Positions 12,191 to 60,401 of a stretch of 64,000 nucleotides of DNA are shown in pieces. Numbering within the stretch: position 1 is the first letter of the stretch; each line of letters opens with the position of its first letter. The DNA lies in the NCBI GenBank assembly GCA_001804705.1, contig MHAY01000034.1, positions 62,001 through 126,000 of the forward strand. Direction: 5' to 3'. The stretch is from Ignavibacteria bacterium RIFOXYC2_FULL_35_21. Its GTDB lineage: Bacteria; Bacteroidota; Ignavibacteria; Kapaibacteriales; UBA2268. Under the pieces are notes generated by a model. The model saw nothing but the letters and a program-made list of their open reading frames with translations. It had not been told where the DNA came from and did no database searches. Both the position numbers and the translations under genes were made by a program.

Positions 12191-13123
12191 TTGACTGGAA
12201 AAAAATATAATATCATTTTCATGGGGACGCCTGAATTTGCAGTTCCGGCACTCGAAAAACTGCACAGTGAATTTGGTGTAAAATGTGTCGTTACCGTCCC
12301 CGACAAACCCCGTGGGAGAGGGCAGGTGCTTGTTCCTTCTGCAATAAAACAAAAAGCTGTTGAACTATCTTTACCTGTTCTTCAACCTGGTTCTCTGAAA
12401 GATGAAAATTTTATTGCAGAATTATCAACATATCAGCTTGATATTATTGTTGTCATTGCTTTCCGGATACTACCACCTGCAGTGATTAACCTCGCAAAAC
12501 TTGGTGCTTTCAACATACATGCAAGCCTGCTTCCTAAATACAGAGGTGCCGCACCGATTAACTGGGCTATTATCAACGGAGAAAAGCAAACGGGCATTAC
12601 ATCATTTCTCCTCGAAGAAAAAGTTGATACGGGAAAAATCATTTTGCAAAACCCGATTAATATTCCGGAAGGAGCAACAGCAGGAGATTTACATGATTTG
12701 CTCATACCAATTGCCGCAGAAATTGCGGTTGATACATGCAGACTTATCATTGACGGAAATTACAAACCGATTATTCAGGCTCATACCCAGGCAACACCTG
12801 CACCCAAGCTGTTCAGGGAGCAGTGCAGGATAAACTGGGAACAACACGCTGAGAACCTTCGGAATTTTATAAATGGTGTTTCACCCATTCCCGGAGCATG
12901 GTTCGACTGGTATGGTAAAAGATATAAAGTTCTCAGGACTGAGTATTCAGCTCATGATTCAGACTTACCCGGCAACTTCTACATTGAAAATTCTCAATTG
13001 AATATTTATTGTGAAAAAGGAATTATCACAATTCTCGAAATACAGCCTCAGGACAAGAAGCCAATGAAGATTGAAGATTTCCTTCGTGGTTACAGAGGCA
13101 ATATATCAGGAGTGATAAAGTAA
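12191..13123 (+). CDS. fmt: Methionyl-tRNA formyltransferase
   Basis: The enzyme formylates the initiator Met-tRNA using 10-formyl-tetrahydrofolate. The N-terminal Rossmann domain begins IIFMGTPEFAVPALE. The formyltransferase signature is HASLLPKYRGAAPINWAI, with TGIT just downstream. The C-terminal OB-like domain starts near residue 205. The frame is open from an ATG at 12146, but those 15 codons translate the dispersed repeat (a peptide like SPFVKGGLRGIF) and are not part of the family. The TTG at 12191 gives a 310-residue protein of normal length with an AGGGGGA stretch at the right distance. There is no def gene next to it. Confidence 0.93.
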   Translation: MTGKKYNIIFMGTPEFAVPALEKLHSEFGVKCVVTVPDKPRGRGQVLVPSAIKQKAVELSLPVLQPGSLKDENFIAELSTYQLDIIVVIAFRILPPAVINLAKLGAFNIHASLLPKYRGAAPINWAIINGEKQTGITSFLLEEKVDTGKIILQNPINIPEGATAGDLHDLLIPIAAEIAVDTCRLIIDGNYKPIIQAHTQATPAPKLFREQCRINWEQHAENLRNFINGVSPIPGAWFDWYGKRYKVLRTEYSAHDSDLPGNFYIENSQLNIYCEKGIITILEIQPQDKKPMKIEDFLRGYRGNISGVIK

Positions 13124-55246: not shown

Positions 55247-55432
55247 TGTGTGTCCTCCTCTGTTTTTCATCACTCTGTTTACTCCGAAACAAGTATTACT
55301 CTCATCTTGTTTCTATATTGAAGACACAATGGGGGAGGGAAAAGTTACAAAGTTTAGTTTCCCATTGTTAACATGCTTGCATAAATACTTACTAAGGAGT
55401 CTGTGCTACTCTTATTTTTTTTATCGAAAATA

Positions 55433-56284
55433 TCATTTAAGAATAGAATGTTTAGCAATGTAAAGGTTGTCAGAAAAAATCATAAGTTCTTGCCCTTGTT
55501 TATTAGCACTACCTGCACTATAAAATAGCTTAAAAGTTTTCTTTCGGAAATTTGAATAAAGTTTTCTAATAGGTCTTACATCATCGTAAGTCATAATCCA
55601 TTTCTGTCTATCAACCTTATTAATTTCTTTTGCAATATTTTGGTGATCATTGTCTTTGTAGTAATTTAAATAAAGGTCTTTTCCTTTAACATAGTAGGGC
55701 GGGTCAAAGTAAAAAAGAGATTTTTGAGGAAGTTCTTTCCGTAGGGATTTCACTAGTACAACTGCGTCAGAATTGTATAACACAATTTTGTTTTTGTAGC
55801 TGGCTATTCTTTCTATACGGTTTATTAAATCTTTCTTGTTATATCGTGCGTCAATTTTCCATTCTCCAGTTTGCTGTCGGCCACCAATAATTCCAGCATT
55901 AAGAATGCCTGAACGATTTGTCCGATTTAGAAAAAAAGTTGAGAAGCCAACTTTTAAAAGTCCCTGCCGTTGTTTAACTTTTTGAATTTGTTTTTGTTCA
56001 TTCCAAGTTTTGACTGAAACTGGTGTGTCGTATATTAATTTGCAGAGTTCGTTAGTTTTATTTAGGACTGAATACCAAAAAGAAAAAATTGAACGGTCAA
56101 TATCGTTTATGATGATTTTGGAAGCATACTCATTGAATAAAAGTGAAAGAGCAACAGAAGCCCCCCCTGCATATGGCTCAACATACACACCATCATACAA
56201 CAAATTTTCCTTGAAAATTTGTTTGAAGTAATCAGCCACTTTTCCTTTTCCGCCAGGATACCGTAAAGGTGAATAAAACTTCAT
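55433..56284 (-). CDS. D12-class N6-adenine DNA methylase
   Basis: This protein transfers a methyl group from S-adenosylmethionine to adenine in DNA. From the ATG at 56284 it is 283 residues. Motif I-like FYSPLRYPGGKGKVADYF is at the N-terminus, VYVEPYAGGASVALSLLF follows (SAM binding), and motif IV is FYFDPPYYVKG. The order matches the Dam/DpnM alpha class (MethyltransfD12), many of which recognise GATC; the real target is unknown. The ATG is 2 nt after the stop of the ParB-like gene, so the genes are coupled. Confidence 0.92.
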   Translation of the reverse strand: MKFYSPLRYPGGKGKVADYFKQIFKENLLYDGVYVEPYAGGASVALSLLFNEYASKIIINDIDRSIFSFWYSVLNKTNELCKLIYDTPVSVKTWNEQKQIQKVKQRQGLLKVGFSTFFLNRTNRSGILNAGIIGGRQQTGEWKIDARYNKKDLINRIERIASYKNKIVLYNSDAVVLVKSLRKELPQKSLFYFDPPYYVKGKDLYLNYYKDNDHQNIAKEINKVDRQKWIMTYDDVRPIRKLYSNFRKKTFKLFYSAGSANKQGQELMIFSDNLYIAKHSILK

Positions 56285-56286
56285 AC

Positions 56287-57642
56287 TTATTTTATATTTT
56301 CCCAAACCTTCTCAGTAAATGATTGAATATTATCCCAACTTGTAACTAAGTGCGTTGCTATCGCTGAAAATTTCGCATTATGAACATATGCGTGTAAAGT
56401 TTCAATCCCCAACAAATCATTATGATTGTTAGCAGCACTTCTAATACCTTTACATGTGTGCTTGTCTGCAAGTTTATTTGTCTCTAAATAGTTAGCTACT
56501 TCTGTAATTTTGTTTATTAAACGACTTTCTTTATTTAAAGGCTTACCGTCTTTTGTGGTTGTGATTTTATTTTCTTCAATGAAGCAATCCATACTGTTCT
56601 CAATGAAAACACGAAATGAAATTGCTGCAACATTCACAAATTTTGATAGAGGGAGTTTTTGAAGTTCGTAATAAATAGAATTAACCTTTGGGTTTTTTAT
56701 TATCATAAGACAATTCTTGGGAATTAGAGTGTCTCTATCCTTGGGATTCGGTTTTAGTTTAGGTTTCGGTTTTTTAGTTTGAGATGATGAACCATTAAAC
56801 TGCCATGGCTTTTTTGATTTTTTCTTTATATTTGGTTTGCTTTCTTTTGGAAAATTTTTTAAATAATCTTCTCTATCTACCTTTGTGTAAATTTTCTGAA
56901 CATTAAAACTGGGGTCAAGAAGATGTTTTGCTACTTGTGTTAATCCTTTTATTACTTCTTTTTCTTCAACTTCTGATTGAATGATCCCACTGTTTATTTC
57001 TACTCCTAAAAAATCTCGAACTTGTGGATCTGAAAGTAATCTTTCAAGATTTGATATTTTTAATTTAGGTAATTCGTTTTTTATTTCATTTGGAATATCC
57101 GCAGACTTCTCTAACATTTTTATTGTTTGTAAAACAACAGATGATTTGCCTTCAATTTTTTCTTCAAATCTATCAACTTGTTGAGCATTCCATGTAACAG
57201 TTCCTGCCCCATCAAGTTGTCCAGCGTGTTTTAATTTAATCCATTTGTCAGCTTCAGCCGGACTGTCATAAACTGTGCATTCAATGTCTTTTATTATTGC
57301 AGATTTATTATCGTCATTAAGTTTTCTGAATTTATTTTTGAGTGAAGCATGACCGCTTTGATCTATTAAGTCAGGATTGTTTAAAAGTTTAAGTGAAACG
57401 CTTCTCCTATTACCTTCTAGAACATTGTATTTCGTTTTGTCGTGGTTGGAATTTACAACTTGAATTTTATCGTTTGGGTTTAAGCCATTCATAACAATAT
57501 GCTCGGCAAGATTGAAAAGTTTATTCCCCTGGTCGAAAATCATCTTGTCGATTGCTTCTTTTTGACTTGCCACAGGTTCAAATCTGTAATTCTCTGTGTT
57601 AATTTGCAAGTCAGTTAGATTGATTATTTTTGTCTTTGACAT
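56287..57642 (-). CDS. ParB/Srx-like nuclease-fold protein with helical tail
   Basis: The product is 451 residues. The N-terminal ParB-like domain (about 1-105) has INLTDLQINTENYRFEP, DKMIFDQGNKLFNLAEHIV and KYNVLEGNRRSVSLKLL, the GNRR being the ParB/Srx nucleotide-binding-type motif. The middle is helical. A basic, lysine-proline-rich linker (about 280-310, KKKSKKPWQ, KKPKPKLKPNPK) is followed by an alpha-helical C-terminal domain (about 320-450). That domain contains VNVAAISFRVFIENSM and LHAYVHNAKFSA. The tail could be a HEPN-like or DNA-binding domain; I cannot name it. It is transcribed between the nuclease and methylase genes. Confidence 0.72.
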   Translation of the reverse strand: MSKTKIINLTDLQINTENYRFEPVASQKEAIDKMIFDQGNKLFNLAEHIVMNGLNPNDKIQVVNSNHDKTKYNVLEGNRRSVSLKLLNNPDLIDQSGHASLKNKFRKLNDDNKSAIIKDIECTVYDSPAEADKWIKLKHAGQLDGAGTVTWNAQQVDRFEEKIEGKSSVVLQTIKMLEKSADIPNEIKNELPKLKISNLERLLSDPQVRDFLGVEINSGIIQSEVEEKEVIKGLTQVAKHLLDPSFNVQKIYTKVDREDYLKNFPKESKPNIKKKSKKPWQFNGSSSQTKKPKPKLKPNPKDRDTLIPKNCLMIIKNPKVNSIYYELQKLPLSKFVNVAAISFRVFIENSMDCFIEENKITTTKDGKPLNKESRLINKITEVANYLETNKLADKHTCKGIRSAANNHNDLLGIETLHAYVHNAKFSAIATHLVTSWDNIQSFTEKVWENIK

Positions 57643-57823
57643 TTTCTTTCTCTTTATAGTTATTATATAAAAATTAAGTTAGTTTCATTTGACAATTTTT
57701 GTTTAGTGACATTTAAAAATCTACAAAACTGTCTGCCAGTACAAAATTTTGGTAGAAACCTGCTGTCCAATTTTGCATGATACCCGCTTTTTCTTTAAAC
57801 CCTCTGTTAGCACCAATTGTTCT

Positions 57824-58618
57824 CTATTTAAAAAGTTTGTCCTCAATTATTTTAAGATTTTTGTTTACGAAAAACATATCAGGTTCATGTTTAACTGCTC
57901 TTGCTCTAATTTCAAAATTCGGGTCTTCAGGTTTTTTGTTGTCGAAAAGTATTAGTCCTAGTCCAAATTGTCGGCAAAGTGTGTCAAGCCGTGTTATGTC
58001 CTCAATTTGCGAATCGTTTGGAACAACAATATACGATTTATGCGAAAATATTTTGTAAGCACAAGCTTGTCCAAATGCGGTTATGAGCCCGTTAGAGTCA
58101 ATTTTAATTTCACCTGAAATAATTTCAGTCGGAAATTGAATTATATCACTTCGTTTTGATTCTCTAACACCAACAACATCCGGAGTACCCCATTTATCAC
58201 GAAAAATGTTTCCACCAAGTGCAATGGCGTTTGTACATTCTTCGAGTTCATTTACTAACCAGTCAGCAAAAGGTTTGTAAAAGTCCTCTTCGGAAATTGA
58301 TTTTGTTTTAGAAACTATTTTCGGTGTGGGTTGCTCGTCAGGTTGAGTTAAAACTTCTTCCTTGAATTTTAGAAGTCGAAATACACCTCTGACGGGTTTG
58401 TATACTTTTTCTGGATATTGAATATCTAAGTCCCAGGTAGCACCTCCTATTGTGTTTGGGTTAAATGAAGAGTTGTGTTCCAAAATATTCCTTTTTAAAT
58501 CCGAATATCTTATGCCCTCTGGTTTGTTCTCCAAAATTTCAAATGCTAATTTTCGTATTTGTCCAGTTATTGTTGTAGCAGTCTTTGTTATTTTGTTTTT
58601 TGTGTGTTGTGTAGCCAT
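57824..58618 (-). CDS. wHTH plus PD-(D/E)XK-like nuclease
   Basis: The product is 264 residues. The N-terminal winged helix (about 12-80) has QIRKLAFEILENKPEGIRYS and DLKRNILEHN, resembling HARE-HTH-like domains of restriction proteins. The C-terminal part (about 110-240) looks like a PD-(D/E)XK nuclease: EEDFYKPFADWLVNELEE, FRDKWGTPDVVGVRES (the PD), TEIISGEIKID (the ExK), then AFGQACAYKIFSHKSYIVVP. The first gene of a three-gene cassette, it is separated from the ParB-like gene by 181 nt. The assignment is by motif; no family name is certain. Confidence 0.72.
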   Translation of the reverse strand: MATQHTKNKITKTATTITGQIRKLAFEILENKPEGIRYSDLKRNILEHNSSFNPNTIGGATWDLDIQYPEKVYKPVRGVFRLLKFKEEVLTQPDEQPTPKIVSKTKSISEEDFYKPFADWLVNELEECTNAIALGGNIFRDKWGTPDVVGVRESKRSDIIQFPTEIISGEIKIDSNGLITAFGQACAYKIFSHKSYIVVPNDSQIEDITRLDTLCRQFGLGLILFDNKKPEDPNFEIRARAVKHEPDMFFVNKNLKIIEDKLFK

Positions 58619-58712
58619 ATTATTGGTATTAACTCTTATTTATGAGAAAAATAACCGCATATTAAATTAACTTAAAAAGTTATAATTTCCAAAGTTATTG
58701 AAAATTATTTAC

Positions 58713-60401
58713 CTACCTCACAGGATATCTCACAAGAAACATGAATCCGTTCTTAGCATAGAGTGGTTTTAGGTTTTCGTTTGCAAGGTATTGCCTGCTG
58801 TCCTTTGCACGGCATAAGAAATATGCGGGTTTGTCAATGTTTCCGTTTATGAGCCAGTCTTCGAATTTTTCTTTTGGTATTTTTTTGTAGTATGCTGAAA
58901 GGTGCATCGGTTTTTCAGTGTAGAAATAATGCCCATACCTATAGTTCGGAATGTTCAGAATATGCACATAACAATCCTTACCTTTAAGCTGCTTGTAAAA
59001 CTCTATGGCTGTACCCTGCGTGTAAGCGTCAATCTTAGGAGCAATTAGAGGAAGGAAAGTGAACATAACTAAAGCAGTAGAAGCAAAAAGATATATAAAT
59101 CCTTTCAGAAGTTTCCTTTTCCGGAATAAAATCAAAGCAAAAATAATTGCAACCAGATAAAATATCCCGATAATAAATTCCAATCCTCCCCAATGAACAG
59201 GAGTTTTGAGGATTTCTCTCGTGAATTCATCAGTGATTTTCGGAAGAAATGATTTTATATTCATCATTGCAAGAGGGAATGCAATTAAAAGCAATGCCCA
59301 AAAAACACCAATGAATCCGACAAACCATGAGACATATCGCTTCCATAGCATTTCCCTGTATGCAAGTGAATACATCGAGTATGCCGCAAGAAATGTCAGA
59401 GGGAAATATGCAAGTGATGAATAATGAATAATTTTTGTTTCAACGATTGTAAAAACTGCAAGCACAACACACAACAAAACGATAGCAGTTTGTTTGAAAA
59501 GTTTTTGATACGAATTGTCTTCCGGTTGATTTCTGAAACTCCGTAAAGCAAGAATTGATGCAGGAAAACAACCGAACAACAGCACAACAAAATGATAATA
59601 AAACGGTCCTCCGTGGCTTGCATCCTCAGTAGTCAGTAATCTGAACTGGTAAGATATAAATTGCTGAAAAATATTTCCACCGCTTTTCATTGATATTATT
59701 AAGTACCAGATAACAGAAGGCAGAAATGAAATTATAGAAAATAAAATAAAATTACCGAGTGGAAAGCGGACTTTCTTTCTATTGAAAAACCAGAGCAGAA
59801 ACCACGAAAGAGACACGAGCAGGTAAGCCGCAGGACCTTTTGTCATTATAGCCAATGCAATAAACACACCAGCAAGAATCGTGTATTTATATTTTGATTT
59901 AACTGCTTCCTGTTTGATATTTATTCTCTGCTCGAAAAATTCAGCCGTATAGTACATTCCAACAAATATTAACAAATTGAAAAGCGGGTCAATCAATCCC
60001 GTCTTGAAATAAAAATGCGGCAGGATGGAACCTATATATGCCAAAACCCAGAGCAGTCCGAGCCTCTCATCAAATAGCTTTTTCCCTATATGAAAAATAA
60101 ACAGAAGGGATATAATACCAATCAGAGCATTTGGAAAACGTGCGGCAAATTCATTGACACCGAATAGTTTCATGCTAAATGCCTGGCACCAGAAAAACAA
60201 TGGCGGCTTTTCGTGGAATGGCTCGTAATCAATCCGCACAGTCATATAATCACCTGTAACGAGCATCTCCCTCGCTGCTTCAGCAAAGTTCACTTCATCC
60301 CAATCGAACAGGTGAACACTACCCAGATATGGAATGAACAACAGAATGCCGATTACGGCAACAATGATGTAAGATTTCCATTTGTACTGTGTGTCTTGCA
60401 T
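58713..60401 (-). CDS. Glycosyltransferase family 39-type (ArnT/PMT-like) membrane protein
   Basis: The product is 562 residues with about 11 membrane helices in the first 450. The catalytic acidic motif in the first loop is LFDWDEVNFAEAAREM. A second block is YEPFHEKPPLFFWCQA and a third FNLLIFVGMYYTAEF. This is the ArnT/PMT type that moves a sugar from a lipid carrier to a protein or lipid. The C-terminal 110 residues form a soluble periplasmic domain. The acceptor is unknown; lipid A modification and protein glycosylation are both possible. It is read toward the defence cassette but is a separate unit. Confidence 0.88.
   Translation of the reverse strand: MQDTQYKWKSYIIVAVIGILLFIPYLGSVHLFDWDEVNFAEAAREMLVTGDYMTVRIDYEPFHEKPPLFFWCQAFSMKLFGVNEFAARFPNALIGIISLLFIFHIGKKLFDERLGLLWVLAYIGSILPHFYFKTGLIDPLFNLLIFVGMYYTAEFFEQRINIKQEAVKSKYKYTILAGVFIALAIMTKGPAAYLLVSLSWFLLWFFNRKKVRFPLGNFILFSIISFLPSVIWYLIISMKSGGNIFQQFISYQFRLLTTEDASHGGPFYYHFVVLLFGCFPASILALRSFRNQPEDNSYQKLFKQTAIVLLCVVLAVFTIVETKIIHYSSLAYFPLTFLAAYSMYSLAYREMLWKRYVSWFVGFIGVFWALLLIAFPLAMMNIKSFLPKITDEFTREILKTPVHWGGLEFIIGIFYLVAIIFALILFRKRKLLKGFIYLFASTALVMFTFLPLIAPKIDAYTQGTAIEFYKQLKGKDCYVHILNIPNYRYGHYFYTEKPMHLSAYYKKIPKEKFEDWLINGNIDKPAYFLCRAKDSRQYLANENLKPLYAKNGFMFLVRYPVR

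Follow-up and report, generated by a model that had tools for sequence, protein, structure and literature searches.

Two of three neighbouring genes in the window, a stretch of 64,000 nucleotides from Ignavibacteria bacterium RIFOXYC2_FULL_35_21, encode a pair of proteins, A and B, which is, judged by full-length profile matches, a new example of the already named phage-defence system PD-λ-5. The third gene encodes a nuclease-fold protein, N. It is independent of the A-B pair and judged not to be part of PD-λ-5. The locus is a known kind of system located in a species-specific defence hot spot.

Organization of the locus

The three genes and their main features are the following:

58618-57824, minus strand: N, 264 aa, winged-helix and predicted PD-(D/E)XK nuclease-fold protein
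57642-56287, minus strand: A, 451 aa, PD-Lambda-5_A by profile match; ParB/Srx fold (residues 1-153), helical region and predicted HEPN domain (residues 314-451)
ATG 56284 to 55433, minus strand: B, 283 aa, D12-class N6-adenine DNA methyltransferase (PD-Lambda-5_B by profile match)
57403..57414, minus strand: GNRR motif of A (residues 77-80) in the apparent NTP-binding region of the ParB fold, invariant in 24 + 14 aligned homologues
56380..56613, minus strand: span with the predicted HEPN set R344-X3-E348-X72-H421 of A, a PrrC/RloC-like arrangement
55350..58701: stretch absent from a congener (G409); the insertion bounds are approximate (by blastn, homology reaches up to 55349 and starts again at 58702)

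N, A and B are three intact ORFs on the minus strand transcribed in the order N, A, B. As the initial annotation had described, they lie head-to-tail, and the last two are coupled: 2 nt separate the stop codon of A from the ATG of B. A mechanical ORF caller starts B earlier, at TTG 56305. To judge by their length, conservation and full-length homologues, the three frames are far beyond chance. The gap between N and A comprises 181 nt. Since N is located on the same strand at this distance upstream of A, both genes could be co-transcribed. A scan of the insertion for promoters and terminators yielded nothing clearly above shuffles. The G+C content is 0.35 for N, 0.32 for A and 0.33 for B compared to 0.37 for the window.

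A and B match both components of PD-λ-5

In a PADLOC run, A matches PD-Lambda-5_A (PDLC03998) with an E-value of 1.4e-151 (residues 1-448 on profile positions 1-465 of 466) and B matches PD-Lambda-5_B (PDLC04018) with an E-value of 4.8e-122 (residues 1-279 on profile positions 1-278 of 291). The proposal that the locus is a defence cassette is borne out by these matches. PD-λ-5 is a two-gene system that was discovered by functional selection in E. coli, protects this host broadly against phages and was termed "compacted RM+Abi" (Vassallo et al., 2022; PMC9519451). The E. coli host lacked the mrr region, and the pair functioned there without N (PMC9519451). With the window, PD-λ-5 is now also found in a bacterial group that has been little studied.

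B was correctly recognized as a D12-class N6-adenine methylase: It matches Pfam MethyltransfD12 (PF02086) with an E-value of 1.3e-17, contains an N-terminal YAGG motif and carries a DPPY motif at residues 194-197 that is invariant in 14 homologues. Its nearest PDB sequence is 7m6b (profile E 3e-31).

A-B pairs were found at 43 loci outside the window, a few near-duplicates included, in bacterial genomes, plasmids and viral contigs. Mostly, A precedes B, and the gaps range from about -58 to 100 nt. At seven loci (L105, L106, L122, L128, L130, L140 and L144), A and B are convergent on opposite strands, with a small gap at most between them. This means, neither co-transcription nor co-translation is required for the pair. 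When viral contigs were searched with the sequence of A itself, almost no close relatives of A were detected; they were found via B instead. Vibrio phage 10N.286.54.E5_PE002 (L104:1-3284) encodes a PD-Lambda-5_A homologue without an adjoining B, and an HNH_2 nuclease gene is located on the opposite strand, hinting at PD-λ-5 variants with another partner. The genome from which the window derives contains a second, weaker PD-Lambda-5_A match (G000:C53:51240-51734; L057, L102). It covers the N-terminal ParB domain only, and an in-frame TGA is reported inside the matched stretch.

N is independent of the A-B pair

The initial annotation had put forward N as the nuclease partner of methylase B and the three genes as a candidate for an undescribed three-part restriction system. 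The distribution of the three families contradicts both claims. When about 85,000 species genomes were scanned with N, 25 loci with 46-91% identity emerged, and A or B is adjacent to N at none of them. The same holds for all of about 32 loci obtained after adding a plasmid, a viral contig and further genomes, with short flanks in a few contigs. Likewise, N is absent from all 43 A-B loci outside the window. In the same class (331 genomes), 12 genomes contain N and 13 contain A, some of the latter with N-terminal ParB-domain matches only. N and A occur together only in the genome of the window. Two of the three proteins match a named system instead.

The sister genomes point in the same direction. 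In congener G409 (L086), the PMT glycosyltransferase gene is directly followed by the TonB gene; neither N nor A-B is present, i.e. the site is empty. Congener G654, a sister species, carries N (87% identical) at the same PMT junction and lacks A-B. The intergenic DNA between N and PMT is homologous in G654 and the window (blastn 57825-58914). Between N and TonB, A-B is replaced in G654 by an unrelated 241-aa gene of no clear family (L225:9029-9754). The site can thus harbour N in the absence of A-B, and the difference between the sisters lies in the A-B pair. G654 also contains a 211-bp copy of the PMT 3' end (91% identical) that flanks an inserted radical-SAM/SPASM gene (L225:10816-11026 and 12308-12516), so that insertions have occurred repeatedly between PMT and TonB. 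N adjoins A because both occupy the same site for accessory genes between PMT and TonB. With regard to a type II R-M system, N provides a REase-fold protein with a predicted intact active site; a linkage of nuclease and cognate methylase across genomes was not found for N and B. The three neighbouring defence genes of the window are two independent modules according to the sister genomes, and adjacency alone is misleading at defence hot spots.

Relatives of N are found in several bacterial phyla and in archaea, often beside other defence genes. They adjoin type IIG-like methylases (L005, L008, L010, L027 and the similar group L015-L017), are located directly downstream of genes for an HmaB-like methylase and an HmaC-like ATPase (L229:2881-10254) or neighbour a type I S subunit with an HNH protein (L228). 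On an IMG/VR contig predicted to be viral (L060:5998-7838), an 83% identical N adjoins an AbiH gene, which might be a route for spread between phyla. At other loci, N has ordinary genes as neighbours. The most plausible view of N is that of a nuclease that acts alone in defence and is mobile. A type IIG methylase with a DUF7149 domain as a partner of N in trans was considered and dropped: the cut-off was cleared in 3 of 25 N genomes and in 37 of 395 background genomes, i.e. a general link does not exist. The window's genome encodes a 1307-aa DUF7149 protein (G000:C58:5782-9705; L200) that is also present in one congener and in another member of the family; elsewhere, the domain belongs to type IIG-like enzymes.

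N is a predicted PD-(D/E)XK nuclease

An AlphaFold model of N built from a 25-sequence alignment (mean pLDDT 83.1) comprises a winged helix (residues 17-82), a low-confidence linker (88-105) and an alpha-beta PD-(D/E)XK-like domain (105-264). The nuclease domain resembles SPO1766 (3dnx, VIA Z 12.5) and the type IIS enzyme PaqCI (8em1, VIA Z 11.5). Residues E110, P146-D147, E170-x-K172 and Q184 are invariant in the 25 aligned sequences, among them the PD and ExK residues on which the initial reading as a winged-helix PD-(D/E)XK nuclease was based. That reading stands, and N is a credible PD-(D/E)XK nuclease with an apparently intact active site. Searches of PADLOC, NCBIfam and PHROGs yielded no match. 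In Pfam, neither Mrr nor HARE-HTH nor another REase family was matched at E-values up to 1, and the only hit was a weak one to WH_Rok below the cut-off. A sequence profile search of the PDB returned weak Rok matches only, and matches among viral proteins include MmcB-like proteins. N belongs to no family in NCBIfam, PADLOC, PHROGs or, above the cut-off, Pfam and may merit a family definition of its own.

A combines a ParB fold with a predicted HEPN ribonuclease

The model of A was built from a 24-sequence alignment and has a mean pLDDT of 87.7. Residues 1-153 adopt the ParB/Srx-like fold that had been proposed from the sequence and match CDP/CTP-bound ParB CTPases (VIA Z 10.2, 95 residues, 2.8 Å). 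The GNRR motif, invariant in both homologue sets, looks like the ParB nucleotide-binding box. The "long helical tail" assigned to A has to be divided: a helical linker is indeed present, but it leads into a compact HEPN domain (residues 314-451). The matches of this domain to HEPN proteins have VIA Z values of 9.0 (4nqf; 121 aligned residues, 3.1 Å), 8.8 (MntA-HepT toxin complex, 6m6w) and 8.7 (AbiA, 8oz7), all in the range below about 13 where matches of helical bundles can be non-specific. A sequence profile search of the PDB with A gave no significant match.

Conservation supplies a candidate active site. R344 and H421 are present in 24 of 24 aligned sequences, and position 348 is Glu in 21 and Asp in 3. 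In a second set of 14 sequences that includes A of the window, Arg is found in 13, Glu/Asp in 14 and His in 14. The classic HEPN motif RX4-6H is not conserved in the homologues of A. An RX5H reading of "RSAANNH" was dropped in favour of R344/E348/H421; it is not conserved among the homologues either. The C-terminus of A is, thus, predicted to be a HEPN ribonuclease fold with a conserved Arg-X3-Glu/Asp-Xn-His set.

Proposed mechanism and alternatives

In the literature searched, no published account of the PD-λ-5 mechanism was found. A nucleotide-binding ParB fold joined to a HEPN RNase with PrrC/RloC-like residues provides a mechanistic lead. We think it probable that A and B form a PD-λ-5 anti-phage system with a methylation-gated mechanism and that N is an unrelated defence gene at the same insertion site. 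B would methylate adenine in a short motif on the host DNA and, thereby, mark self. A would engage DNA via its ParB-fold nucleotide-binding domain, which would act as a switch and restrain the C-terminal HEPN RNase as long as B or methylated DNA is there. Unmethylated phage DNA or the loss or disabling of B would release the HEPN domain, which would then cut RNA, by analogy with PrrC and RloC possibly tRNA, and stop the infection. Separately, N would cleave foreign DNA via its PD-(D/E)XK domain, while the winged helix reads DNA, perhaps including its modification state; that cleavage by N is possibly modification-dependent is a reasonable guess. The analysis itself shows the identities and folds of the proteins, the conservation of active-site residues, the A-B pairing and the independence of N; we infer methylation gating, the RNA target and the substrate of N. 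Methylation-gated abortive infection by A-B is the best-supported mode of action. Given the ParB and HEPN domains of A, methylation-gated RNA cleavage can be tested directly.

The same genes could be read as a single restriction system, with N as the nuclease for unmethylated DNA, B as the protector of the host and A in a scanning or control role. Such a system would explain the compact arrangement on one strand, the intact nuclease active site of N and the fact that exactly N, A and B fill the stretch missing from G409. It is nevertheless very improbable, as the three genes were found together at no other locus or in no other genome examined, G654 has N at this position but lacks A-B, and in E. 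coli the pair works in the absence of N. A is the core effector of PD-λ-5, whereas the ParB-like protein had been taken for a new third component of a restriction system. Hardly to be expected either is a recruitment of N into PD-λ-5 in this species, with methylation by B protecting host DNA from N and at the same time silencing A. If true, an R-M nuclease and a ParB-HEPN system would have formed a natural composite here, a layered defence with cleavage of unmethylated DNA as its first step and RNA shutdown as its second.

Other alternatives concern the A-B pair itself. PD-λ-5 might be a true restriction system whose ParB fold acts as a DNase on unmethylated DNA with HEPN as backup and N independent. 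Nuclease-active proteins of the ParB/Srx superfamily are cited in PMC10853773, and Vassallo et al. spoke of RM+Abi. We consider this rather doubtful: the model of A best matches nucleotide-binding ParB CTPases, residues 1-153 revealed no nuclease motif, and the invariant GNRR motif resembles a nucleotide-binding box. A toxin-antitoxin-like pair, in which B binds and restrains the HEPN toxin, phage inhibition of B triggers killing and methylation is not read, would agree with the tight A-B pairing and with the silencing of PrrC by its R-M partner (PMC2610378, PMC3710099). It is unlikely, though some weight has to be given to it; B keeps its invariant catalytic DPPY motif, and the opposite orientation of A and B at seven loci shows that co-translation is dispensable.

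Comparison with known systems

N shares an N-terminal winged helix and a PD-(D/E)XK nuclease with REases fused to HARE-HTH or winged-helix domains (PMC10853773; type IV enzymes with wH fusions, PMC11037411). For such fusions, sensing of DNA modification has been proposed and in some cases shown (PMC10853773, PMC11037411). In contrast to them, N matches neither HARE-HTH nor Mrr in Pfam, and DpnI-type enzymes carry their winged helix at the C-terminus, whereas it is N-terminal in N.

A resembles the anticodon nucleases PrrC and RloC in the HEPN fold with an Arg-X3-Glu-Xn-His arrangement. The catalytic set is R320-E324-H356 in PrrC and R-X3-E-X36-52-H in RloC, where mutation of any one of the three residues abolished activity (PMC2610378). 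Between E348 and H421 of A lie 72 residues compared to 31 in PrrC and 36-52 in RloC. Because of this longer spacing, the equivalence of the catalytic sites is suggested by analogy only. PrrC is an RNase coupled to the DNA-modification status, as is proposed here for A. However, the regulatory domain of PrrC and RloC is an ABC-ATPase, that of A a ParB fold, and a match at the sequence level was not found.

The domain pairing of A corresponds to that of Swt1-like ParB-HEPN fusions, e.g. Saro_3948, which were listed in 2013 and for which a function together with R-M systems has been proposed (Anantharaman et al., 2013; PMC3710099). In the sections consulted, this architecture is described without a D12 methylase partner, and the likeness to A is one of description. 

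The closest relative is PD-λ-5 of E. coli. It is located in a prophage, whereas A-B resides on a bacterial chromosome between the PMT glycosyltransferase and TonB genes, where, unlike in the E. coli system, an unrelated nuclease gene lies upstream. In both cases, A and B are adjacent in this order and a ParB and HEPN protein, as predicted here, is paired with an adenine methylase, and both proteins match over their full length.
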